Of a DNA stretch of 64,000 nucleotides, positions 7,807-39,629 are shown piece after piece. The translations under genes were made by a program, and so were the position numbers. The first letter of the stretch is position 1. Every line of letters begins with the position of its first letter. The notes beneath the pieces are model-generated. The model was not told where the DNA came from. It saw nothing but the letters and a program-made list of their open reading frames with translations, and did no database searches. The stretch comes from Cenococcum geophilum 1.58 (taxonomy: Eukaryota > Ascomycota > Dothideomycetes > Gloniales > Gloniaceae): positions 5,494,130 to 5,558,129 of the forward strand of contig KV748177.1 of assembly GCA_001692895.1 (NCBI GenBank), given 5' to 3'.

Positions 7807-9557
7807 ATTTATAGTTTTTAAGATAGAATTATTTATTGTAAACTTAGTAAATATAAGCTAGTTAATCTAGTTATCTTATAAGTATAACGTGTATATCTAA
7901 ATATATTATTCTATTATAGCATTTATATATTCCGTTTAGCCATCCGTTTTTAGGTAGTATACTATAAATAATAGTATTTTAATATGGAGTTAGGTAGTTA
8001 GTTCTTTCTAAAATATAAAGATAAACTAGCTGCCTTTATTAGAATTAACTGTTTTAAAGAGTCTATAGAGTTTCTATATATAATCTAAAAATAGTTAGGC
8101 AATTGTAGGTGTTAATATATTAGGGTAGGCGATTAAGTGTTTTATTTTAGATAGTCGGTCTATAACTACTATAATATTTATACAGCCCTTACTTATAAGG
8201 AGGTTTATAATAAAGTTAATTAAGATATCCTTCTATCTTTGGTTCGGAATAGGTAGTGGTTTTAAAAGGCCGTTATATATTTTATATAAAGCTTTAGCTT
8301 ATTAATAGATATAGTAGCTAGAGACGTACCTTTATATTATATTATATATTTTTGGCTAATAGTATTCTTATTAGAGCAGTTTTAGGGATTTTCTTTAGTC
8401 TAGGTAGCTAGCTACTAGTAGATTATATATATATTTAAGGAGCTTAAGCTTAAGTTTATTATAGTTAGGTATAACTAGGCGGTTTCTATAGGCTTTATAT
8501 TTACTTAAAGAAATCTTTTTTAAGCGTTTAATGCCATTATATATTAGCTTAAGCGTCTTTTAAATAAACTCGTTATTTAGGTATTTATTAACTATAATCT
8601 ATTTAATTAATTAATTAGTTATTTTAAGAACGTATACTATAAGATCTTTAATAGGAGAGTTAAATAGTTTAGGGCGAAGTAGGGTTTAATTTTAGTAAAA
8701 GTGCGCTTTTTTTAAGGCTAGCGCGTCTTACAAGTATTAGGTTAAGGTATTAGGCTTTTAACCTTAAACGCCTAAGCGGTATATAATTAAGAATTAGAAA
8801 TAAAATAGATATTCTAACTAGCGGGCTTAATAATAACTTAGCTGTTTTGTGGTTATAAAGTATTATAGGTTCTTATAGTCACTAAGGACCTTAATTAGAA
8901 ATTCGGCGCCTTTTAGTTTAGGTTACTATTACTTAAAGCATCTAATAATAGCTAGTAATTCTTTATTATAAATTTTGTAATTATATTTAGCGGGGCTTAG
9001 TTGCTTTATAAAGTATACTATAGGGTATAATATTTCTTTTTTGTTATATTAAGACAGAATACCTCTAGTAACGTAATTAGATAAGTCAGCTTCTATAATA
9101 CTTATTTATTCCAGGTTAAAGTATTAGAGTATAGGTAGAGTAGTAAATATAACCTTTAGGTAAATAAAGGCTTTATCCTTTTAGGTTAAAGCTATAAGGG
9201 GTAAAACTAGGGCGAAGAAGTTATTAATAAACCGTTAGTATAAATTAGCAAATTCTATAAAGGCTTTTATATCCTTAACGTTTTTAGGTTTTTACTAGTT
9301 TATAATTACTTTAACTTTCTTTAGGTCTATTTATATACTATTTATAAAAATAAGAAGCCTAAGGTATAGAACTTCTATTTTATAAAATTTGTATTTATTT
9401 ATATCTAATTATAGGCTAGCTCCTTATAGGGCTTATAAGATAAAGTTAGGTTATTACTATATATTAAAATGTCATTAATATAAGTAGTATAGAAGATATC
9501 TAGGTAGGGGCGTAGGGTATTATTTACGTAATATTAAAACGAGCTTAGAGCATTTAT

Positions 9558-9570
9558 AAGGCTAAATAGC
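9558..9570. repeat. 13-bp target-site duplication of the 9571-11009 element
   Basis: AAGGCTAAATAGC occurs here and again at 11010-11022, flanking the insertion. The sister copy Gypsy-B has the unoccupied site (ataaggctaaaggg, about 22862-22875), which confirms the insertion point. Confidence 0.9.
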
Positions 9571-9620
9571 GTCCGTCGCCTCCCTTTCGACCTCCGTCCG
9601 TCGCCTCCCTTTGCTCCTCC
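9571..9620 (+). repeat. 25-bp direct duplication at the 5' end of the LINE-tailed element
   Basis: Two adjacent units of 25 bp, each beginning GTCCGTCGCCTCCCTTT and ending CTCC, make the extreme 5' end of the insertion. They are GC-rich and little affected by RIP, unlike the surrounding Gypsy sequence. Confidence 0.85.
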
Positions 9621-9692
9621 GCCGTCGTCGCAGGGGCGCCGCTGGTTATATACCCCCTAAGGACGCGTCATCACGACGCTAGCCACTACCAC

Positions 9693-10231
9693 CAGTCTGC
9701 CACAGAGCGGACGACCTCCTCAACCCGTCTGCTACAGAGCGGACGACCTCCTCTACAACCCGTCTGCCACAGAGCGGACGACCTCCTCTACAACCCGTCT
9801 GCCGTAGAGCGGACGACCTCCTCTATAACCCGTCTGCTATAGAGCGGACGACCTCCTCTATAACCCGTCTGCCACAGAGCGGACGACCTTCTCCTTAACC
9901 CGTCTGCCATAGAGCAGACGACTAGCCACCATAACTAACGATTCTACTATAACCTGTCTGCTGCAGAGTAGATGACCTCCTTTATAACTTGTCTGCTGTA
10001 GAGCAGATGACCTCTTCTATAATCTGTCTGCTGTAGAGCAGACGACCTCCTCTATAACCCGTCTGCTGTAGAGCAGATGACCTCTTCTATAACCCGTCTG
10101 CTGTAGAGTAGACGACCTCTTCTATAACCCGTCTACTGTAGAGCAGATAACCTCTTTTTTATAACCTGTCTACTGTAGAGCAGACGACCTCTTCTATAAC
10201 CTGTTTGCTATAGAGTAGACGACCTCCTATA
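9693..10231 (+). repeat. Tandem array of about 15 hairpin-forming 35-bp units
   Basis: Each unit is CCGTCTGCYRYAGAGCRGACG followed by a pyrimidine-rich spacer such as acctcctctataa. In right-hand units CGTCTGCT and AGCAGACG are perfectly complementary around a 4-nt GTAG loop. Left-hand units (GTCTGCC..AGCGGAC) keep most of the stem with one G-T pair and one mismatch. Unit 7 carries an extra 18-20 bp. Two degenerate units follow to about 10290. Differences between units are mostly transitions. The function is unknown. Confidence 0.9.
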
Positions 10232-10322
10232 TCTAGTCTATAGCTATTGTGCTGCAGATAACCTCTACTATAACCAGTCTATGGCTGTCGCGCTATAGGC
10301 AATTAAATTATAGAGGACTAAA

Positions 10323-10358
10323 GGCGTACTATAGGCGTACCGCAGGCGCACCGCAGGC
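10323..10358 (+). repeat. 11-bp short tandem repeat
   Basis: About four units of AGGCGTACCGC (variants aggcgtactat, aggcgcaccgc) follow the hairpin array inside the LINE-tailed element. Confidence 0.7.
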
Positions 10359-10439
10359 GATACACTACTAGGGTAGCTATAGTAAGGGATAGGGGAAGGG
10401 GGCTAGCCCGTATTACTATTAGCACGTAAAATATAAGGT

Positions 10440-10470
10440 GTATAGGGAAATTGGTATTTATACCCTATAC
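10440..10470 (+). repeat. Inverted repeat GTATAGGG...CCCTATAC
   Basis: Two perfect 8-bp arms with a 15-nt loop, in the AT-rich middle of the LINE-tailed element. It could fold as a stem in the element RNA; no function is known. Confidence 0.6.
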
Positions 10471-10878
10471 AGACAACCTTATAAAAATTTTTCCTACTAG
10501 GGTGGGTTTATATAGCAAGGTTCGCCCTTCTAAAATACTATTAGTAGCCTACTTTTAGGGAGAGTAGCTATTAATTACTAATTCCCTACCTATTCTTAAG
10601 TAAGGAGAAGAATAGGTTATATTACCGAAAAAAGTTATATAGGAATAACTGGTAGTTATTTCTAAGCTGGCAAACTATATAGAGCCCTTTGTTTTTATAT
10701 GCAAATGTTACTAAATCTATCTTTTAGAGCGCTTTTTCTACTTTAGGAACGGTAGAATATAGCAGAAATAGATAAAAGAGCTAGGATTTCTTTATTTCCT
10801 TAGTGCAAACTAAATATTAGAGAGCAAAATACTAGGATAAAACTCCCCTAGTATTTAAAACGGACTAGAGTGTCTATT

Positions 10879-11009
10879 TAGTTACTAGTACATATTAAGC
10901 TGCCTGGGAAGGATTCATGTATATAGGACTATAGCGCCATAGCCTAGAGGCTGCATGCGCAGTATTGTACGTAGTATAATACAATTGGATAAAAAAAAAA
11001 TTAAAAAAA
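10879..11009 (+). promoter_or_regulatory. LINE-type 3' tail (likely RT recognition segment) and poly-A
   Basis: About 110 bp ending in ggataaaaaaa match, in reverse complement, the 3' end of the LINE at 24504-24632 and of the truncated LINE at 38581-38715. The conserved core covers the block around catagcctagaggctgcatg. Shared 3' ends are how non-autonomous elements recruit a partner LINE reverse transcriptase in other eukaryotes; that role here is inferred. Confidence 0.75.
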
Positions 11010-12794
11010 AAGGCTAAATAGCATTATTAAGTATTTAAATAATCTATACTAAGTACAAAATATAGTAAGCTATTTATCTCCTTTTGCTATATAGAGGCGG
11101 TTAAATATAGAGATAATATTAAGCTTTATATAGTAGCGAGCCTTACTTAATTAGTTTAGTATCTCCTTTATTAACGGGATTAGATATTAATCCTTAATAG
11201 TAATAGTATTAAGAGCTCGGTAGTTTATATAGAAGCGTAAACTACCGCTAGGTTTCTTAATAAAGATTACTAGTACGGCTATAGGCGATAAGCTTACTCT
11301 AATAAATCCTTTACTTAGGTTCTTATCTAAATACTTTTATAGCACTTAGAGTTATTTTAGGATATTTTATATAAGGGTCTAAATCTAGGCTACTTTCCTT
11401 CTTTAAGTATAATCTTATAGTTGTATAGTTAGTATTCTAGTAGTTTATTAACTTTTTTTATAAGAATATATCTAGACGGTAATAATACTCTACTAGTACC
11501 TTTGTAGTAGGGTTAGTATACTTCTTTAGTACTAAGGCCTTCTTAATATTGGCTATTATAACAGCGAAGATTATATATTTGGGTTTTTTAGTAAGTCGCG
11601 CTAGTGGGGTAGCTCTAATTATATAGATATCTAGAGTATTAAGTTCGCTTAGGTTGTCTATAGTTTTTTTACATAGTTTCTTATTTAGTTTTAAATTTAG
11701 TATTAGGTATAGAGTTGGTATTAAATTTAGGTTTAGGTTGTTTAAGTATACTATTTATAATAAAGTACTAGTCCTTTTAGTATTTTCGTATAATAAGCTT
11801 AAGCTTTAATTTAGCGCGGGGTAGTATAGTACTTAAGGTCTATTTATAGGGTTTAGTAGAATTTTTAGATCCTTAATAGATATTAGTAAAAGTCTTATAT
11901 TAGTAGAATTCGGTAAAATTCTTAGGCTAGTAGAATTAGGTGGACTTCTTAGATATAGAGTAGACGTTAATAGAAATTTTAGACTAGTAGATCTTAGTAG
12001 ATTTTTTAAATTTTAGTTTAAGGTCTAAGCAGTAAGTTATAAGGCACTTTTGCCTATAATAGGAGGCGGTAAATAGAAGCTTAAGGTTATTTTAATTAAT
12101 AGTTACCTTATATAGCTTTATTTAGGATTATCTAAGAATTACTAAGTAATCTAGGGTAGTAATAAAAAGCCTAATTAGTTCTTTATAGTTTAGAAATTAT
12201 AGTCTTAGATATACTATATAGGTAATTTAGCCTAAAACTATATATTTACTATTAAATTTAAATACATTAATATGCTAGTTAAGGGGGGTTAGGGTAAAAC
12301 TATTATCTTATATAAAGATCTTATTAATAAATCCTATACTACTAGCTCCTATTTTAATTAGGACTTAAGTATTAGCCTATTAATTATTTTACTAAAGATA
12401 ATAGTTAATAGTTATGCTATAATCCTAAGAGTTAGAGTTTATAATATTTAAAGTATTTAATAAAATCCTAAGGTAAAGCTGTCCTAAAAAGCGACTTAAC
12501 TTTAAAATATACCTTTTAGTAGTAAGCGAGAAGGGGTTTCTATAAAACGTTAGTTATAGCTTTACCCTTATAAGTAGTGCTTACTAAATATAGGGCTAAA
12601 ACTAAATAAAAATTAGAGATGGTAACTAAAAGATTAATACGGTAAATAGTTGCTAGTATTAGCTATTTATAAATTATATTTAGGTATAGGGATAGAGTAG
12701 TAGTTAAAGAAGTAGGAGTTATTTTTATATTTAAAGTAAATGCCTAGCTTAATGTGTAATTCTTATTTAAAGAACCTTAGTAGAGTATATTTTA

Positions 12795-20399: not shown

Positions 20400-23300
20400 C
20401 TAGGTAAAGTTTATAAAAGTCTTCTGCGGCTTATATAAGTCCTACAGAGTTAATGGGTTCCCATGAGGGCTTAGTAAAGCCTCTCCATTTTATAAGGTAC
20501 ATATACTAGCGTTTCCGTTTATTATACTTAATGTTATTAATTCTTTTAATAAAGTACTCGTTCTTACTATCCACTTTAACTGGTAGGGGAGGGTCTTATA
20601 TCTGTCTAGGCAGGGCGTCTAATACGGGGGTAGTAGGGCGGAGGACTGACGTATAGAATATAGGGTGGATTTTAACCGTATTAGGGAGCTTTAGTTAGTA
20701 GGCGTAAGAGGAAACAATCTTCTTAATCTTGTAAGGGCCAGTGTTCTTTTAATTAAGTTTCTTAGCAGGTCGTTTTGTATTTAGGTTTCTTATATCTAGC
20801 TAGATAAAGTTACTAATCTAGTAAGCCGGTGCTAGGGTTTATTTCTTATTTACTGCGGCTTTATAGATAGATTGGGCCTATATTATTTCATTAATAAGGA
20901 ACCGTTGTAGTTCCTCTATCTTCTTTATAAATTTATTTACTTCTGCGACTTATAAGGCATAACAAGTAGGGCAAGAAACATTACTAAAAGGTTTAAAACC
21001 CATTCGTGGGTGCTAGCCGTAATTAGCCAGGAATGGGGAGACCTTTATAGTTTCCAAGACGGAATTATTTATAGTAAACTTAGTAAATATAAGCCAGTTA
21101 ATCCAGTTATCTTATAAATATAACGTGTATATCCGAATATACTGTTCCATTATAGCGTTTATACATTCCATTTAACCGTCTATTTCTAGGTAATATATAG
21201 TAAACAGTAGTACTCTAATATAAAGTTGGGTAGTTAGTTTTTTCTAAAATGTAGACATAAACTAGCTACCTTTATTGGAGATAATTGTTTTAGGGAGTCC
21301 GTGGAGTTTCTATACGTAATTTAGGAATAGTTAAGCGACGGTAGGCGTTAACATATTAGGGTAGGCAATTAAGTGTCTTATCTTAAATAGTTGGTCTATA
21401 ACTACTATAATATTTATACAGCCTTTACTTATAGGGAGGTTAACGACAAAGTCAATTAAGATGTCCTTCTATCTTCGGTCCGGAACAGGCAGTGGCTTTA
21501 GGAGGCCGTTATACATCTTATGTAAAGCTTTAGCTCGTCGGCAGATATAGCAGCTAGAGACGTACCTTCGTGTTATATTGTATATATTCGGCTAATAGTA
21601 TTCTTATTAAAGCAGTTCTAGGGTTTTTCCTTAGCCCAGGTAGCTAGCTACTAATAGATCGTGTATATATTTAAGGAGCTTAAGCTTAAGTTCGTTATAA
21701 TTAGGTATAACTAGGCGGTTCTGGTAATATAAGCGGTTTCCGCGGGCTTTATATTTACTTAGAGAAATCTTTTTAGAGCGTCTAATACTATCGTGCATTA
21801 GCTTAAGCGTCTCTTAGATAAATTTATTATTTGGGTATTTGTTAACTATAATTTGTTTAATTAATCAATTAATTATTTTAAGGACGTATACCGTAAGGTC
21901 TTTAGTAGGAGGGTTAAATAGTTTAGGGCGAAGTAGGGTCTAATTTCAGTAAGAGCGCGCTTCTTTTAGGGCTAGCGCGTCTTATAAGCGTCGGGTTAGG
22001 GCGTTAGGCTTCTGACCTTAAACGCCCGGGCGGTACGTAATTAAGAATCGGAAACGAGATAGATATTCTGACTAGCGGGCCTAATAATAACTCAGCTATT
22101 TTGTGGTTGTGAAGTACTGTAGGTTCTTATGGTCGCTAAGGACCTTAATTAGAAATCCAGCGCCTTCTAGTTTAGGTCGCCATTATTTAAAACATCTAAT
22201 AATAGCTAATAATTCCTTATTATAGATCTTATAGTTATATTCGGCTAGGCTTAGTCGTTTTAAAAAGTATGCTATAGGGTATAGTACTTCATCCTCGTTA
22301 TATTAAGACAGGATGCCTTTAGTAACGTAGTTAGATAAGTTGGCTTTTATAACACTTATTTAGTTTGGGTTAAAGTATTAGAGTATAGGCGCGGTAGTAA
22401 ATATAACCTTTAGATAGGCAAAGGCTTTCTTACATTCTTTATTAAAGATAAAGACTTTATCCTTTTAGGTTAGAGCTATAAGGAGTAAAACCAGGGCGGA
22501 GAAGTTATTAATAAACCGTTAGTAGAAATTAGCAAATCCTATAAAGGCTCTTACATCCTTAACGTTCTTAGGTTCTTACTAGTTTATAATTACTTCGACT
22601 TTCTTTAGGTCCATTTATATACTATTTATAGAAATAAGGAGTCTAAGGTATAAAACTTCCGTTTTATAGAACTCGTATTTATCTATATCTAATTATAGAC
22701 CAGCTCCGTGCAGGGCTTATAAAATAAGGTTAACGTATTTCCGATATTCGGTTAGGTTATTACTATATATTAGGATGTCGTCAATATAAGCAGTATAGAA
22801 GATGTCCAGGTAGGGGCGTAAGGTATTGTTTATATAATACTAAAACAAGCTCGGGGCGTTTATAAGGCTAAAGGGTATTACTAAGTACTTAAATAGTCCA
22901 TATCGGGTACGAAATATAGTAAGCTATTTATAATACGGAGACGGTTAAATATAGAGATAATATCGAGCTTTGTGTAGTAACAAGCCTTACTTAGTTAGTT
23001 TAGCGTCTCTTATATTAACGGGATCGGATATTAGTTTTTAACGGTAACGGCGTTAAGAGCTTAGTAGTCTATATAGAAGCGCAGACCGCCGCTGGGGTTT
23101 TTAACGAAGATCACTAGTGCGGCTATAGGCGACGAACTTGCTCTAATAAATTCTTTACTTAGGTTCTCGTTTAAATACTTTTATAATACTTAGAGTTCGT
23201 TTTAGGACATCCCGTATAGAGGTCCAAATCTAGGCTGCTGTCCTTCTTTAAGTATAATCTTATAGTCGTATAATTGGTGTTCCGGTAGCTTATTGGCTTC

Positions 23301-24490
23301 CTTCTATAAAAATACCTCTAGGCGGTTATAGTACTCTACTAGTACTTTTATAGCAGGGTCGGTGTGCTTCTTCGGTACTAAGGCCTTCTTAATATCAGCC
23401 ATAGTAATAGCGAAAATCGTATATTCGGGTTTCTTAGCAAGTTATACTAGTGGGGTAGCTCCAATTATGCGGATATTTAGGGTGCCAAGCTCGCTTGGAT
23501 TATCCATAGTTTCTTATTTAGGTTTAGGTTCGGTATTAGGTACAGAGTTAGTATCAGATTTAGGTTCGGGTTCTTTAAAAATCCTTTTTATAGTAAAATA
23601 CCAGTCCTTCTAGTATTTTCGTATATTAAGCTTAAGCTTCTACTTAGCTCGGGGCGGTGTAGTACTTAGTAATAACTTATGGGATCTAGTAGGGTTTTCG
23701 GATCCTTAGTGGATATTAGTGGAATTCTTATACTAGTAGAGTCTAGTAGATTCTTTGGGTACGGGGTAGACAGTTATAGAAATTTTACGTTAGTAGAATT
23801 TAGTGGAATTCTTAGATTTCGGTTTAGGGTCAAGACGGTACATTGTAAGGCACTTCTACTTATAACGGGAGGCGGTAAATAGAAGCTTGAGGTTGTCCTA
23901 ATTAATAGTTACCTTATATAGCTTTATTTAGGGTTATTTAAGGATTACCAGGTAACCCAATATAGTAATAAAGAGCTTAATTAGTTCTTCGTGATTTAGG
24001 TATTAGAGTCTTAGGTATACTATATAAGTAATTCGGCCTAAGACCGTACGTTTGCTATTAAATCCAAATATATTAATATGCCGGTTAAGGGGGGTTAGGG
24101 TAAAACTATTATCTTATATAAAGATCTTATTAATAAATCCTATGCTACTAGCTCCTGTATCAATTAGGACTTAAACATTAGCCTATTAATCGTTCTGCCA
24201 AAGATAACAGTTAACGGTTATGTTACAATCTTAAGAGTTAGAGTTCGTAACATCCAAAGCATTTAATAAGATCCTAAGGCAGAGCCATCCCAGAGAGCGA
24301 CTTAACTCTAAAATATGCCTTTTAGTAGTAAGCGGGAAGGGGTTCCTACAGAACGTCGGTTATAACTTTGCCCTTATAAGTAGTGCTTACTAGATACGGA
24401 GTTAGAGCTAGATAAAGATCGGGGTCGGTAGCTAGAAGATCGGTACAGTAAACGGCTACTAGCGTTAACTATTTATAGATCTTTTTAAAA
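20400..24490 (-). pseudogene. Gypsy-B Pol remnant
   Basis: Minus-strand domains: chromodomain about 20440-20590, integrase C-terminal part to about 20950, integrase core and zinc-binding segment about 21000-21800, RNase H about 21950-22450, RT about 22500-23340 (active-site region near 22770-22795), protease region about 23900-24200 and the end of Gag to 24490. Plus-strand open frames at 23362-23613 and 23679-23882 are shadows. It is the best preserved Pol of the B family here but still has many interruptions. Confidence 0.75.
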
Positions 24491-24503: not shown

Positions 24504-24822
24504 TTTTTTTTTTTTTTTTATCCGTTATATTATACTACGTACAATACTGCGCATGCAGCCTCTAGGCTATGGCGCTATAGTCCTATATACATAAATCCCT
24601 TAGGGCAGCTTAACATATACTAGTAACTATATCCTAGTAGTTTATAAGCCCCTAAACTAGGGGTTTATAGTTCCTTAGTAAAATACTAAGTTACAAGCAA
24701 CTACTAGGGAATGAGAAAGCGGTAGAAAATTATAAGAAAATTAAGAAATCCTAACGCCTGTCCCTGTCCTTTTGTAATTTATTTCTATCCTTTTACTTAC
24801 TAATATCTCTTTACTAGGAGCC
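24504..24822 (-). other. LINE 3' untranslated region and poly-A tail
   Basis: Runs from the ORF2 stop to the A-tail on the minus strand. It includes a small inverted repeat CCCCTA..TAGGGG near 24651-24667 and the roughly 110-bp end segment shared with 10879-10990 and 38581-38715. The three copies agree closely over the block around gcatgcagcctctaggctatgg. Confidence 0.8.
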
Positions 24823-27800
24823 TAGTAGGAGTTACCTCCTTCTATAGATCCTGCTGTTATTAGCCACTTTCTAGTAGCTATTCCTGTCCTACTTAGAAAT
24901 AGAAAAAGCGTCTCTCTTCCTTTTTGTGTACAAAATAGCTTTTTTAGAGAGAGAGAAGAGCCTAGTTTCTTTTGCATTTCTCTTCTTTCTTCTCTATATA
25001 GGTTACAGTCTAATAGTAGGTGCCTAGGTGTTTGTAGTGCTCTACATTCCCTAAAGCATCTACCATCTTCGTCCTCCCCCCCTATTACTTTAGAGAAGGA
25101 TTTAAAATAGCCTTTTCCTAGCTTTAGCTGGAAGAAAGCTAATTATAGCCTTTTAGGATATTTATCCTTAGGGGCTTTAAGAGAAAAGGAATAGCTTCCT
25201 TTACAGATCCTAGTATAGTGTTTTCCTTTATTCTTATTCTGTTGCCAGTTATTTTTCCACTATTCTATTATCTTTTCTCTTACTGCTCTCCCTATATAGG
25301 CTAGGGAGGTATAAAAAGATTATAGTTTTCTTCTAAAAAGGCCCTTTTTAGCTAGCTTATCTGCTATTTTATTCCTATAGATTCCTAAATAGCTAGGAAC
25401 CCAGTAAAAGTTAATAGAGATCCCCTTACTAGCTAGATAGGAGCAGCTTTACGTAATTTTAAAGACTAGTTCTTACCCCCCTATAAGAGAATTAAGCTAT
25501 AATCTCTTAATAGCCGCTTAGCTATCTATAAAGATATAGACTTATTTCTCTTCTAGTCTTTATTATTTTAGGTATTCTAGGGCCCTATAGACTGCGTAGA
25601 TCTCTACGTCTATAATTTTCATATAGGGTCCTAGATTCCAGTTTGTTGCATATTTAATTCTATTTCTCTCCCCTATTTTACATACAGCAGCTATATTTAA
25701 TTTATTGTCTTTAGAGCCATCTATATAGTATATATCTACTAGGTCCCACTCTAGGGATTCTTATAAATTTTCCACTAGTTTTAGGTGTTCTTATACAGCT
25801 TCTTCCTTACTACCTTTTAAGATAGAAAAGGATGCAGAAACAGGAGGAAACCACGGTTTTTGCCAATCTAGAAAGGTTCTCTCTATTTTCCAGTTTTGAA
25901 TTAGCTGTTAAACTCTAAAGGCTAAAGATAGTAGCTATGTCTTTAGCTATAAGAAGTACTTTATAGTATAGTTTTTAGGGCTAAAACTAGAGCTAGAATT
26001 AGCTGCTAATTCGTCCCTATCTTTATTAATCTCTTTTATATAAACCTTCTTAATTACGTGGTTTTCCTTAAATTTTAGGATTTTTAATGCGTAGTTATTA
26101 CAAAGCTTTTTGAATCTAATTCTAGGAGGAGGAATAGAGGCTTCAATCTCCATAGCTTAGCTAGGAGATCCTCTAAACGCTCCTAGAACTAGTTTCAGGG
26201 CCTCATTTTGTAGAGATTGGTACCTATCTAGTAGGTAGTCTCTAGATTTGCTTTTCCACCAGCATTATACTCCGTAGTCTGCTATAGTAGTAACACATAC
26301 TATATAGAGTTGTCGTAGGGCTTATAGAGATAGACCTCTTTACATATTACCCAGTCTTCTAATTAAATAAAAGGCTGCCTTTGCTTTAGAGATTTGTATT
26401 TCTATATATTGTTTAAAAGTAAGCTTAGAGTCTAGGAATACCCCTAGCCACCTAACTAGGGGTTTAGGGGATATTTCTACATCTCCTAGCTTTAACCCTT
26501 CTTCTATAGTAGTACGTTTACTATAGAAGTATATAAGCTCTATTTTACTAACGTCGAAACTAATAGCAGCTTCTTTGGCTTTAGACATTAGCTCTAGCGC
26601 TATTCTCTCTAGCTTTTTACAATTAGATTTAGCTGAATTTAAGGTAACCGTAATTGCAAAATCGTCCATATAGCTAAGAGAATAGGCTCCTTCTGTCTGT
26701 ATGCTGCAGATATTGCATATATATAGTAGAAATAAGATAGGGGATATAGGCGATCCCTATAGTATCCCTGTTTCTAGTTCTACTTTTTCTTGTATTTGCC
26801 CATTAAAGGAAAGTAGCTACCCATTATATAAACGCTATAGGTAGTCCTAGTTCCTTATAGATAGATAAAAGCTAGTTTTTAGAGACATGGTCAAAGGCCC
26901 CTTTTACGTCTAGGAATAATATAGTAGCTATCCTTTGTCTAGCTTTTTTCCTACTATGTTTAGATTGGATATTATTTAGAAGTAGTAAGACTGCGTCTAT
27001 TGCGGAGCGCTGTCTTCTTCCTCCTAATTGGGAATCTTGAAGTAAGCTAGTAGTACTAGCTAGATATCCTAATCTAGTGGTAAAGATCTTTTCTAAAGTC
27101 TTTCCTAGGCAGTTTAGTAAGGAGATAGGTCTATAGGACTTTAGTAAAGAATAGTCCTTCTTATTTGCTTTAGGGAGAATAACTCCTCGAGCTTCTCTCC
27201 AAACCTTTAGCTAATAGCCTAGGATAAATAAAATCCTATAGATTCTATATAGAAGATCTTCTATAATAGGGTAGGCCTTTTATAAGATTGTAAAAGATAT
27301 CCCATCTGGTCCTGGAGCCTTTTTATTAGAGCTAGAGAAAATTGCTTATTTGACTTCTATTTTCTCCAGTTCTGGCCATTCCCATTTATTGTCTATTATA
27401 TAGTCCTTCCACTCTATAGAGCTAGTAGAAGGGGGGGTTTTAGGAATAGAGTAGTTATAAAAGCTTTATACTGGTCCTCGAAGCTTTCTACTAGTCTAGT
27501 TATCCCATCCTTGCTATACTATAGACTAGGGATTATTCGCAATGTTTTCTCCTTTGTGTATTTTAGGGCAGTAAAGACCTCCTTCCCTTGTGGTTTTTCT
27601 AGAAAGCTATTCCAGCAGCTAGTCTTGGCTTCTCTTATTGCGTAGAAGTATTGATTTTTAGCTTCTTTACAGGCTTCTAGTCTAGAACTTCTAGTAGGTT
27701 GTTCCTCTTGAAGTCTTCCTAGTTTTGCCATTTTTTGTCTTTTCTTTAGAAGCTCCTTATTCCACCATAGTTTAGAGAATTCGCAGGTTCTAGATTTAGG

Positions 27801-28889
27801 GATAGCTTTCTTTACTGCTAGCTTTATACAGCTAGTAAGATCTATTGCTAGATTGTCTACTAGTGTACTTAAGCTTCTATCCCTAGGCCTATAAAAATCT
27901 TCTAGAGAGGCTAGGGGACCTTTTTCTCCTATCTCTGTATAGGGGTTTTCTCCTACTAGTTCCTCTAGTACTAAAAGTTTTGCTTCTAGTTCTAGCTTTA
28001 GAACTTGCTCTTTTAAAGAAGTAGAGAAAAGCTCCCAATTTACCTTTTTTATAGAGAAAGGAGTTTCTTAAAGAGGGTTTAGGTATCTTTACGTCTCTCT
28101 AGTAAATAGAGAGAATGTTATAGTCTTATGATCAGATCCTGTTTCTTCTATTATAGTCCAATTATCCCAGGTATTTTCTTAAAAGTTTCCTAAGTAGAAG
28201 GCTAGGTCTATAATAGACTTTTCCCTTATATTGGATCTATAGAAGGTCCCTTTCTGTTCGTCTGAATTTAGTAGTTAGCAGTTGTATTTGTCTAGCCAAT
28301 CTACTAGTTCTTTGGCCTCTCTAGTCGGATTCCTCGCTAGTGCGTTCCACCGTGTATGGTGTAGGTTATAGTCTCCTATTAGTATAAAAGGGAGGTCTAT
28401 TTCTAGTTCTAGAATGGCCCTAGAGATAGTACTTGTGCTATTTCTTTAAGTTCTAGAGTTCTCGTCTAGTTGTTTCTCGTTATAGACATTAAACAATAAA
28501 AATCTCTCAAGTTGGCCGTAGATTTCTAATGCTATAATATCTGTGTCTTTGCAGATATCCTCCCTATTTCTATATTGTAGAATACTAGAGCTAGTTTTCC
28601 TTATATAGATAGCTACTCTAGGGCGAATAGCTAGATTACTAGGGAGAATAAGGTTAAATGCAGGATGTAGAATAGAGAAGTAGGATTCTTTTTGTCTATC
28701 TTTCCAGGTACTAGGTTCTTGTACTAGAATAATATCTATTTTTCTTCTAAATCCTATTTCTAGTAGGGTTTGCTGTGCTTCTTGTCTTTTTCCTACATTA
28801 TGTTGTATAAAGGAGATTTCTCCTCTAGCTTTAGAAACTAGTAAGATCTCTTCTTCTTCCTGTATAGAACCTTCTAAGCTTGTACTCAT
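24823..28889 (-). pseudogene. LINE ORF2: endonuclease, reverse transcriptase, RNase H
   Basis: About 1,355 codons, a normal length for Tad1 ORF2. The start is the ATG at 28889, inside the ORF1 stop (ATGA overlap). Domains on the minus strand: AP-like endonuclease from residue about 25 (FIQHNVGK at the start of the fold, ILVQEP motif near 28720); RT about 27250-26300 with FLDVKGAFDHV near 26890-26925 and the YMDD active site at about 26661-26675; RNase H about 25780-25450 with YIDGSKDN, EIYAVYRALE and FIDSQAA, keeping the acidic residues; then a C-terminal Cys/His segment about 25070-24920. It would nick target DNA and prime cDNA synthesis there. Several in-frame TAG/TAA codons, mostly where Gln or Trp is likely, make it a pseudogene. 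The longest intact parts are 28446-28889 and 26340-26669. Confidence 0.85.
28886..28889 (-). promoter_or_regulatory. ATGA stop/start overlap between LINE ORF1 and ORF2
   Basis: The last codons of ORF1 read ..CAC CAA TGA and the ORF2 start ATG shares the ATG of CAATGAG. Such an overlap suggests ORF2 is made by termination and re-initiation, as known for some LINEs. This fixes both the ORF1 end and the ORF2 start. Confidence 0.75.
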
Positions 28890-30340
28890 TGGTGTACTAG
28901 TTTAGCTGCTTTAAGAGACTCGCAGTCTTTGCTATTAGCAAAGTGGTTTTCTTTACAATTGCTGTAAAGAGGGGTAGTATGCTCGCAAGGTCTGCCTATT
29001 ATATTACAAATAGAACAGGAGTGGTCTTTAGATAGATATACTGCTGCACAAAATCGACAGGCCCTAGTAGAGCACCTATCTCCTATATGGCCAAATTTTT
29101 GGCAACTTGTACACTGTATAGTAGGAGAGACTTTTAGGTATTTAACCACCTTAGCAGCTACCCCTGCAATTAGGATTTCCTTCTGCTTAAGGATTTCCTG
29201 TCTTTTCTCCTCGTTTTCTATAGTAAAGACTATAGAGCCGAACCTAGCTTATGGATCATATCTCTTTTCCCTAGAAGAGATCTATTTAGGTATTCCCTGT
29301 ATCCTAATAGGATTAAAGGTCTCTATTTCCTCTTTTAGGAGTTTAGAGCCTCCTTCTCCTAGAAAGGGGGGAATAGGGACGCCGTGAGCTACTACCTGAG
29401 CCCAGGGTTCTAGTTTTTGTTCTCTTTTAAAGGAGAAGCAGCTTGACCAGATTTCTTTATATTTAACTAGAAAATCTGCATTATATTCTTCTGTAGTTAT
29501 AAGAAGAATATTCTGCTTTTCTCTAGTTCTAGCTATAGAAGCTATAACTGGCTTCTCTATTTGCAATTTAGACATAAACCGCTAATTGATTATATTTCGT
29601 ATAGAGAAGATATCTAGAGACTGGTCCTTTTTATCTGTAACTAGGACTAGTCCCCTTTCTTATAGCTGCTTCTTTTTCCCTCTAGTAGAGGTAGGGCTAG
29701 TTGAACTAGTAGTGCCGCTCGCTGCTTTACTTATAGTAGGGGGAACTAAGGTAGAGGAAGGAGAAGAAGATGAACTGGAAGGAGGAGGAGCAAAAGTAGA
29801 AGTAGAGAGGCCCTTCTTTAGCTTCTCTGCGTAGGTTTTCGGGGCTACCTCCTTACGGAGGGCTCTTAATTCTTCTACTAGTCCTTTTAGGACATCTCTT
29901 TCCTTCCTTTCTTTTTCTTTTATAAAGGGATTTTCTCCTACTAAAACGCTCTGTACGTAATCCCCTAGTAGTTTGACTTGCTCTCTTTTTTCTTCTTCTT
30001 CTTTTAGCCCTATATAGGCCTGGTTTAGGTTATCTAGAGCCGTTTGTAGGTGATATCTTGGAGAGAGAGAGGAAGGAGGTATACTAGCCGTAATAGGCTT
30101 GGGTATTAATGTCTTTCTTCTTTGGTTTTGGCTCTCTTTTGTAGAAGGAGATTGCATATACTACCTTTTTCTTGTATTCTTTTTTTCTACGTCTTTCCTA
30201 GATGGGCAGGGGGAAGGCGGAAGAGAAGAAGAAGAGGTAGATGAGCGTTCGTCGTCACTTGTCTCTGTATTTCCGCCTCTAGGAGGCCTTTGTTTAGGCC
30301 TAGTAGGCCTTATTATCTTATAGGGGGGGTTCCTAGTTTT
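28886..30340 (-). pseudogene. LINE ORF1: nucleic-acid-binding protein with CCHC knuckles
   Basis: Open segments at 29660-30157, 29282-29575 and 28886-29149 follow one another on the minus strand and form one decayed ORF1. The N-terminal part is rich in Ser, Arg and Lys, and the reading frame appears to run upstream past 30157 to about 30340 through an in-frame TAG. A charged, possibly coiled-coil stretch (KEEEEKREQVK) lies near 30000. The C-terminal part holds zinc knuckles (CTSCQKFGHIGDRC, then CRFC, CSIC and further Cys/His), as in Tad1-clade ORF1 proteins that coat the element RNA. The stop overlaps the ORF2 start as ATGA (28886-28889). The true start codon is uncertain. Confidence 0.8.
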
Positions 30341-38523: not shown

Positions 38524-39629
38524 TATAAAGGCGCGAAGAGACTTTAGGGAAGATTTAAAGGGATAATATAAATTTTATCTTTTTTTATTTTTATTTTTTA
38601 TATCCGTTGTATTATACTACGTATAATACTACGCATGCAGCCTCTAGGCTATGGCGCTATAGTTCTATATACATAAATCCTTTCTAGGTAGCTTAATATA
38701 TACTAGTAGCTATGTCCTAGTAGTTTATAAATCCTTAAATTAGGGATTTATAGCTTCCTAGTAAGATGCTAGGTTGCTAATAACTATTAGGTAGTAAGAA
38801 AACGATAGGAAAATAGTAGAGAAAATTGGAATAAAATTATAAATAATCCTAACGCCTGTCCCTGTCCTTTTGCTTTCTATAGTCTATCTACTAGGACTTT
38901 AGTAGGAGTTGCCTCCTTCTAGAGATCCTTTTGCTCTTAGCCACTTCCTAGTAGCTATTTTTGTCCTACTTAAGAATAGAAAAAGCGCCCTTCTTCCTTT
39001 CTTTGTACAAAAAAGCTTCTCTAAGGAGAGAGAAGAGCCTATTTGTCTTTGTATTACCTTTCTATCTTCCCAATGTAGTCTGCATTCTAGTAAGAGGTGC
39101 GTAGGGGTTTGTACCGCAGTACAGTCCTTAAAGCATCTACCTTCTTTGTCCTTCCCTATTATTTTAGAGAAGGATTTAAAGAAGCCTTTTCCTAGTTTTA
39201 GTTGAAAGAAAGCTGATTGTGGCTTTTTAGGATATTTATCCTTAGTGGCTTTAAAAGAGAAAGGGTAGTTTCCTTTACAGATTCTCGTATAGTGTTTTAA
39301 ATTTTATCTAAATCTAAGGGTATATAGCTTTTGCTAGGGATAAGATGTTATATAAAAAAGAGAAAGAAATAATAAGAGAATTTTATAATTAAATAGTTAG
39401 AGGTCTTAGTAGTTAATATATACGGTCTTTAACAAACTTTAGTAGAATTTAATAAAACTAGTAGAACTTAGCAGAAGTTAATTAAGCTAGCAGAATTCGG
39501 AAGAATTCGGTTAAGCGTCAATTTTTACTAAAACGTTCGTTTTGGTAGAATTTGGTAGAACTTGGTAGAATTTATCTATTAAGTGTTTTACTAAGACATT
39601 TTTACTGTAACTGGGCTAGTCCCGTTACA
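38524..39629 (-). repeat. Gypsy-C 5' LTR interrupted by a LINE copy
   Basis: LTR sequence is 38524-38580 and 39299-39629, about 380 bp in all, starting TGTAACGGGACTAGCCC on the minus strand. It holds three GAA triplets at 10-bp spacing (39548, 39558, 39568) and further spaced AGNAGAA modules at 39445-39520, like the Gypsy-B LTR. Confidence 0.8.
38581..39298 (-). mobile_element. 5'-truncated Tad1-type LINE copy (718 bp)
   Basis: Same family as the LINE at 24504-30968. It keeps the A-rich tail (T-rich here, 38581-38601), the 3' untranslated region and the last about 130 codons of ORF2, with the C-terminal Cys/His segment about 39100-38980. It is flanked by a perfect 11-bp target duplication AAATTTTATCT (38570-38580 and 39299-39309). 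5' truncation is typical of target-primed reverse transcription. The plus-strand open frame at 38909-39205 is a shadow. Confidence 0.92.

Follow-up and report, generated by a model that had tools for sequence, protein, structure and literature searches.

The VNTR composites SVA, LAVA, PVA and FVA are hominoid-specific as described in the parts of the source used here (PMC4432496). SVA and LAVA consist of short 5′ tandem repeats, a GC-rich variable array of 30-50 bp units and a 3′ body, and move by a LINE acting in trans; the 5′ repeat of SVA is a hexamer (same parts of PMC4432496). EhSINE1 of Entamoeba histolytica is non-autonomous, is 451-684 bp long, and shares with a LINE a 3′ end of about 70 bp alone. 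It holds a variable number (1-4) of internal repeats of 26-27 nt; within the sections of the report drawn on, there are no copies with at least five, and neither a hairpin array nor GC-rich 5′ repeats are described (PMC2996970). Among fungal elements, AfuSINE2/3 have target-site duplications (TSDs), and one is LINE-like; they are 140-493 bp long with tRNA or 5S heads, according to the portions cited (PMC5063351). MoTeR2 of Magnaporthe is a likely defective non-LTR partner element with an unrelated middle, differing from the present element in its telomeric position and in a further 860 bp of shared 5′ end (PMC7367193, in part). The WEIRD/MINE/Mg-SINE chimeras of Magnaporthe join a full-length non-coding 5′ module to a 5′-truncated LINE or LINE-tailed element in the same orientation, within one TSD. 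That source, in the sections relevant here, counts 33 chimeras, gives WEIRD as 1.1 kb, records no solo copies and names GCC*A/U as a switch motif (PMC2104539).

A family of elements with a hairpin array and a LINE-derived tail was found in the genome of a presumed filamentous fungus. Judged by sequence, its members are very probably non-autonomous non-LTR retrotransposons that parasitise a LINE of the same genome. The layout appears closest to the hominoid VNTR composites SVA and LAVA, and the tail sharing closest to Entamoeba SINE1. The 5′ repeats are 25 bp in place of the SVA hexamer, and, unlike in SVA and LAVA, the tail is the LINE's own and the array units form hairpins of 7-8 bp (longer in array type C). 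A layout like that of VNTR composites in a presumed filamentous fungus is of interest given their hominoid-only description in the parts of that report used (PMC4432496). A search of the open-access literature, with subscription papers and repeat libraries outside its scope, found no fungal element combining a hairpin array and a LINE tail.

One copy lies at positions 9571-11009 of the window, the whole stretch of 64,000 nucleotides that was analysed. The TSD AAGGCTAAATAGC flanks it on both sides, with poly-A ahead of the downstream copy. Its features are as follows.

9558-9570, forward strand: 5′ copy of the 13-bp TSD, AAGGCTAAATAGC; from TSD scoring and the empty site.
9571-9627, forward strand: GC-rich head at the 5′ end, in which a 25-bp repeat occurs about 2.3 times; from TRF, which places the repeat at 9570-9627.
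9628-9693, forward strand: unique part of the head, about 65 bp; from locus comparison.
9694-10223, forward strand: array of 15 hairpin units of type AB, for the most part at a spacing of 35 bp; stem CGTCTGC(T)/(A)GCAGACG.
10235-10300, forward strand: two terminal hairpins unlike the AB units in sequence, the first akin to units of the second array type (C).
10301-10878, forward strand: body of about 580 bp common to the family, with no coding signal noticed.
10879-10990, forward strand: 3′ tail common to the window LINE and ORF1-only elements; from sequence match.
10962-10982, forward strand: 9-bp stem with a GTA triloop directly 5′ of the poly-A; occurs in LINE and element.
10991-11009, forward strand: poly-A tail, interrupted.
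11010-11022, forward strand: 3′ copy of the TSD; from TSD scoring.
22226-23455, forward strand: copy related to the host sequence, in which the site is empty at about 22864-22875; from flank alignment.

A sequence-only reading of this DNA had reported a LINE-like 3′ end with poly-A, a GC-rich 5′ end, a target duplication of 13 bp and, in what it called the sister Gypsy-B copy, an empty site near 22862-22875. The ends, the duplication and the empty site were all recovered. The duplication occupies 9558-9570 and 11010-11022, the poly-A is present, and the 25-bp head repeat accounts for the GC-rich end. The flanks of the element adjoin at window 22226-22872 and 22864-23455, with 79% identity each, as at an empty site. 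Element positions 1306-1438 (position 1 is window 9571) are 89% identical to the 3′ end of a LINE at 24632-24504 on the minus strand. Among six copies, the longest sense-strand frame without stops is 216 codons, too short for a reverse transcriptase of its own; a coding body was considered and set aside, the element being apparently non-coding.

The source genome (177.2 Mb, 162 contigs) was searched with the whole element, the head and the array. The whole element gave 53 matches at the best 40 places of 1341 loose candidates, a number inflated because the LINE tail matches too. These 40 include the window's own copy, and many are nearly full-length. The head-only and array-only searches gave 100 and 111 loose candidates, respectively, of which the best 40 were scored in each case. 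Family elements are about 1.2-1.6 kb in length. Inspected by eye, the first 30 loci all finish with this tail followed by an A-rich run, and their flanks differ. TSDs scored above the best of 168 mismatched pairs in 18 of 29 copies, equal to it in one (L011) and below it in ten, in a scoring that misplaced the poly-A end in L011, L012, L015 and L021. Seven of the ten low-scoring copies have a further module, X, upstream (L009, L012, L016, L019, L022, L023, L027); the other three (L002, L010, L015) are weak or ambiguous. Six further head loci were read by eye, and exact TSDs of 11-12 bp were seen in four (L064, L065, L068, L069); L066 carries module X. The sixth, L067 (C13:2939200-2941200), has the head and 10 hairpin units, with body and tail absent from the 1.8 kb read. 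An insertion may separate its array from its tail, since a tail on the same strand was found further off, at C13:2937201.

Elements start at GTCCGTCGCC in 16 of the 29 scored copies and in 13 of the 18 with a TSD, start positions being taken from alignment to the head of the window element. Pattern matching finds up to eight 25-bp head repeats (in L004). Pairwise comparison of the last 755 bp in six A-type copies (15 pairs) gives 3-49 transitions against 0-1 transversions; such transition-only divergence is, as far as sequence tells, what C-to-T decay, for instance by RIP, would leave. Several genomic copies, a common 5′ end, their own TSDs and a variable unit number, which the sequence-only reading had named as support for an element family, were all present in the source genome. 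It had also named two signs of a one-off chimera. The first, a single copy, is contradicted by the 40 scored places; the second, other bodies joined to the same tail, was partly found, because the tail belongs to the LINE. A one-off chimera is ruled out by those 40 places and the TSDs in 18 of 29 copies. The proposal of a new class of non-autonomous retroelement is supported as far as the LINE-tailed hairpin-array family is real; the novelty of the class is not supported, as tail sharing, VNTRs and composite build are each known.

The window array has 15 units at spacings of 32-37 bp, usually 35 bp, with one of 54, in agreement with the roughly 15 units of 35 bp first described. The 8-bp stem with a 4-nt loop claimed for every unit fits some; others fold as 7 bp with a 6-nt loop. 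RNA folding of the array, earlier suggested as a check, gave -206 kcal/mol for 9687-10310 (z -6.8), and none of 20 dinucleotide shuffles folded as low. Single units, each against 500 shuffles, gave z of -2.7 and -4.7 for type AB, -3.9 for type C, and -2.1 and -3.2 for the terminal hairpins. Fuzzy matching counts 5-18 AB units per locus in 32 of 34 loci and zero in L016 and L019.

In the second array type, C, the stem is longer (GTCTACAGCC/GGCTGCAGAC) and contains one mismatch. Nine type C units each were found in L038, L060 and L023, at a spacing of 38 or 41 bp in L038 and L060; two wider gaps in the L023 array are probably missed units. L070 and L072, inspected by eye, have C-like arrays too, and many AB arrays end in a single C-like hairpin. 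Two array matches elsewhere, C22:2242933-2243963 and C73:520042-520862, span about 1.0 and 0.8 kb and perhaps hold 23-29 units.

Conservation within AB units was measured on 417 units from the 34 loci, to which L016 and L019 contributed none. For the 258 of these with the next unit at exactly 35 bp, entropy averages 0.19 bits for the stem, 0.31 for the spacer and 0.60 for the loop together with its closing pair. Nearly every difference between units is a transition. Seven of the eight stem pairs form as often as independence predicts, and the innermost is paired in 348 of the 417 units against 321 expected; the outermost pair is formed in 227. Entropy and pairing counts are compatible with selection for hairpins without demonstrating it. 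Covariation as proof of stem function was rejected, as the excess over independence is at the innermost pair only.

The array taken by itself could be a hairpin minisatellite caught by a LINE-tailed element and carried as a passenger without a role, and this has a substantial chance of being right, a little under even. The varying unit number, the predominance of transitions and the weak covariation agree with it, as does the lack of an AB array in L016 and L019, the first of which has a TSD around the whole. Against it, a further hairpin unit, whose stem is different, was expanded at the same place, and the tail was present wherever array places were read: 20 of the 40 scored coincide with loci read, and all 20 bear it. 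L067, outside that list, has its array without a tail in the stretch read. A functional array is put forward with lower confidence. The array may be a working RNA domain: a row of stems would aid RNA survival, capture, or pausing or jumping of the enzyme, and two different hairpin units would each have expanded at one site for that reason. The elements would then be VNTR composites that arose independently of primates and were assembled by template-switch traffic with module X. In a tree of bodies (44 rows), A forms one clade and C-array copies fall in several places, with bootstrap unsettled; array type does not track this tree, which was counted against the main model. The tree files L047 as B despite a C-like spacing of 38 bp, and L050 as C with no array seen. 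A separate origin of the AB and C array types was sought from the tree, and no claim is made, the labels of L047 and L050 being doubtful. The family offers many copies with TSDs, arrays of two types, chimeras free of arrays and, in the window, a LINE with the same tail; on these, the function of the array and the origin of composites could be studied.

The tail leads to a LINE in the window that the sequence-only reading had missed, as it had the same tail on ORF1-only elements and on X chimeras. The LINE features are as follows.

24504-30147, reverse strand: candidate autonomous partner LINE, decayed; from domain and sequence matches.
30147-28895, reverse strand: ORF1-like part of the LINE, 74% identical to L042.
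28499-28119, reverse strand: endonuclease of the LINE (PF14529, 71 bits), with three stops.
24632-24504, reverse strand: shared tail with a 16-nt poly-A, 89% identical to the element.
38580-38929, reverse strand: 3′ part of a second LINE with the same tail; from sequence match.

Seven LINE pieces were searched against Pfam. Reverse transcriptase (PF00078) was matched by two, at E 1e-4 and 3e-6; the other five had no worthwhile match, and the endonuclease assignment comes from the PF14529 match listed above. A TSD search for the exact 5′ end of the window LINE did not locate it, giving a 9-mer only, and likeness to L077 suggests that this lies inside the LINE. The usual LINE clade in fungi is Tad1. 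LINE 3′ ends at L049 and L055 both run from position 1207 between unrelated flanks, with 98% identity over 423 columns. By eye, L061 (C101:37300-41500) belongs to a different LINE family and is interrupted by the 3′ part of the tail-bearing LINE in reverse orientation.

The tail, taken as the last 130 bp, also stands behind other bodies; 12 of 30 loci in one set share the tail alone or little more. One 1.6-kb body is common to eight tail loci (L042, L044, L046, L048, L051, L052, L053, L056). Inspected by eye, translations of L042 and L048 have cysteine knuckles and a glutamate-rich stretch, like a LINE ORF1. L042 25-1259 matches the LINE at 30147-28895, and L042 1294-1627 matches 24852-24504. 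These eight ORF1-only elements look, from sequence, like this LINE minus ORF2 and are presumably comparable to mammalian HAL1. The hairpin element could likewise be an internally deleted LINE whose 5′ region held the array, as the ORF1-only elements resemble deletion products; this is very improbable, because at E 0.01 the only window matches of the element beyond its own place are two LINE tails. A LINE deletion product was rejected for the body on that result. That the hairpin element is a classical SINE with a Pol III head is less probable still: it has the LINE tail, poly-A and TSDs, whereas no tRNA was found in 10 element loci, 9301-11100 had no Rfam match at E 1, T runs of at least four occur inside all six copies checked, and the length is about 1.4 kb. 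The tRNA, 5S or 7SL head of a Pol III SINE was thus lacking in those searches, nor did Rfam find the Alu-like domain that is a feature of SVA and LAVA.

The favoured reading, a family parasitic on the LINE, would place its members under Pol II, which is likelier given the lack of a Pol III head and the internal T runs in six copies. Through the shared 3′ end, a Pol II transcript would be captured by the LINE machinery, which would then insert it by target-primed reverse transcription, a step suggested by the LINE tail, poly-A and TSDs. Movement in trans would be provided by a tail-sharing LINE, the window copy itself being decayed. L1, by comparison, is not known to need a shared 3′ end. The 3′ stem-loop before the poly-A occurs in five distinct versions, one of them broken, in 62 tails with repeats counted; its stability is little above that of shuffles, with z of -1.2 for the element and -1.9 for the LINE tail. 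With stringent-type LINEs as the basis, we infer that it may be the recognition site of the LINE. The array would expand and contract by slippage or unequal exchange, and its structured RNA may help persistence or capture or be a passenger.

Module X is about 1.75 kb in length and lies upstream of seven of the first 29 copies, including L022 and L016. A genome search gave 401 loose candidates, and the best 40 were scored. Its start is fixed at or near GCCCGTGAAGCCC, and the first base is the start in 36 of the 40 scored matches. Its 3′ end lies at or near TATATAACTACCTG, with the terminus ...AACTACCTG. Apparent chimeras of X were also found at L062 (C15), L063 (C20) and L070-L090. X is joined to A-, B- and C-type elements and, in the same orientation, to the LINE at several points. 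In L016 and L019, it is joined to element position 665, and the AB array is absent. Some two dozen joints were read overall, and 16 of the first 21 matches were read further for the 3′ partner of X. The partners are internal points of the LINE (4), the 5′ region of the LINE or ORF1-only elements (2), the hairpin element (3), X itself (2) and unrecognised sequence (5; L080, L081, L082, L084, L087). The remaining five of the 21 are B-type (L022), A-type (L019), C-type (L070, L072) and LINE (L071). By eye, L080 shares with L089 the reverse transcriptase of another LINE.

In all three joints with both ends read, the TSD lies outside X and around the whole chimera (AAGTCTAATTAT, ATAACCTTAAAA, ATACCGTAAAACA). 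A TSD around X alone was sought in L089 and L090, and none was found. The X forms fit template-switch chimeras of the Magnaporthe MINE type (PMC2104539), which is what the single TSD around the whole and the fusion of a fixed-end X to varied cut points of the LINE suggest. The LINE enzyme would jump during copying to module X RNA and produce a longer chimera with one TSD around the whole. The resemblance to WEIRD is by layout alone; unlike WEIRD, X is about 1.75 kb, has hundreds of loose candidates and has hairpin elements as repeated partners. Joints of X would make LINE template switching countable within one genome. At J16, a further 12-base match away from the X start was taken as chance. 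L061 and L081 have a downstream sequence in common.
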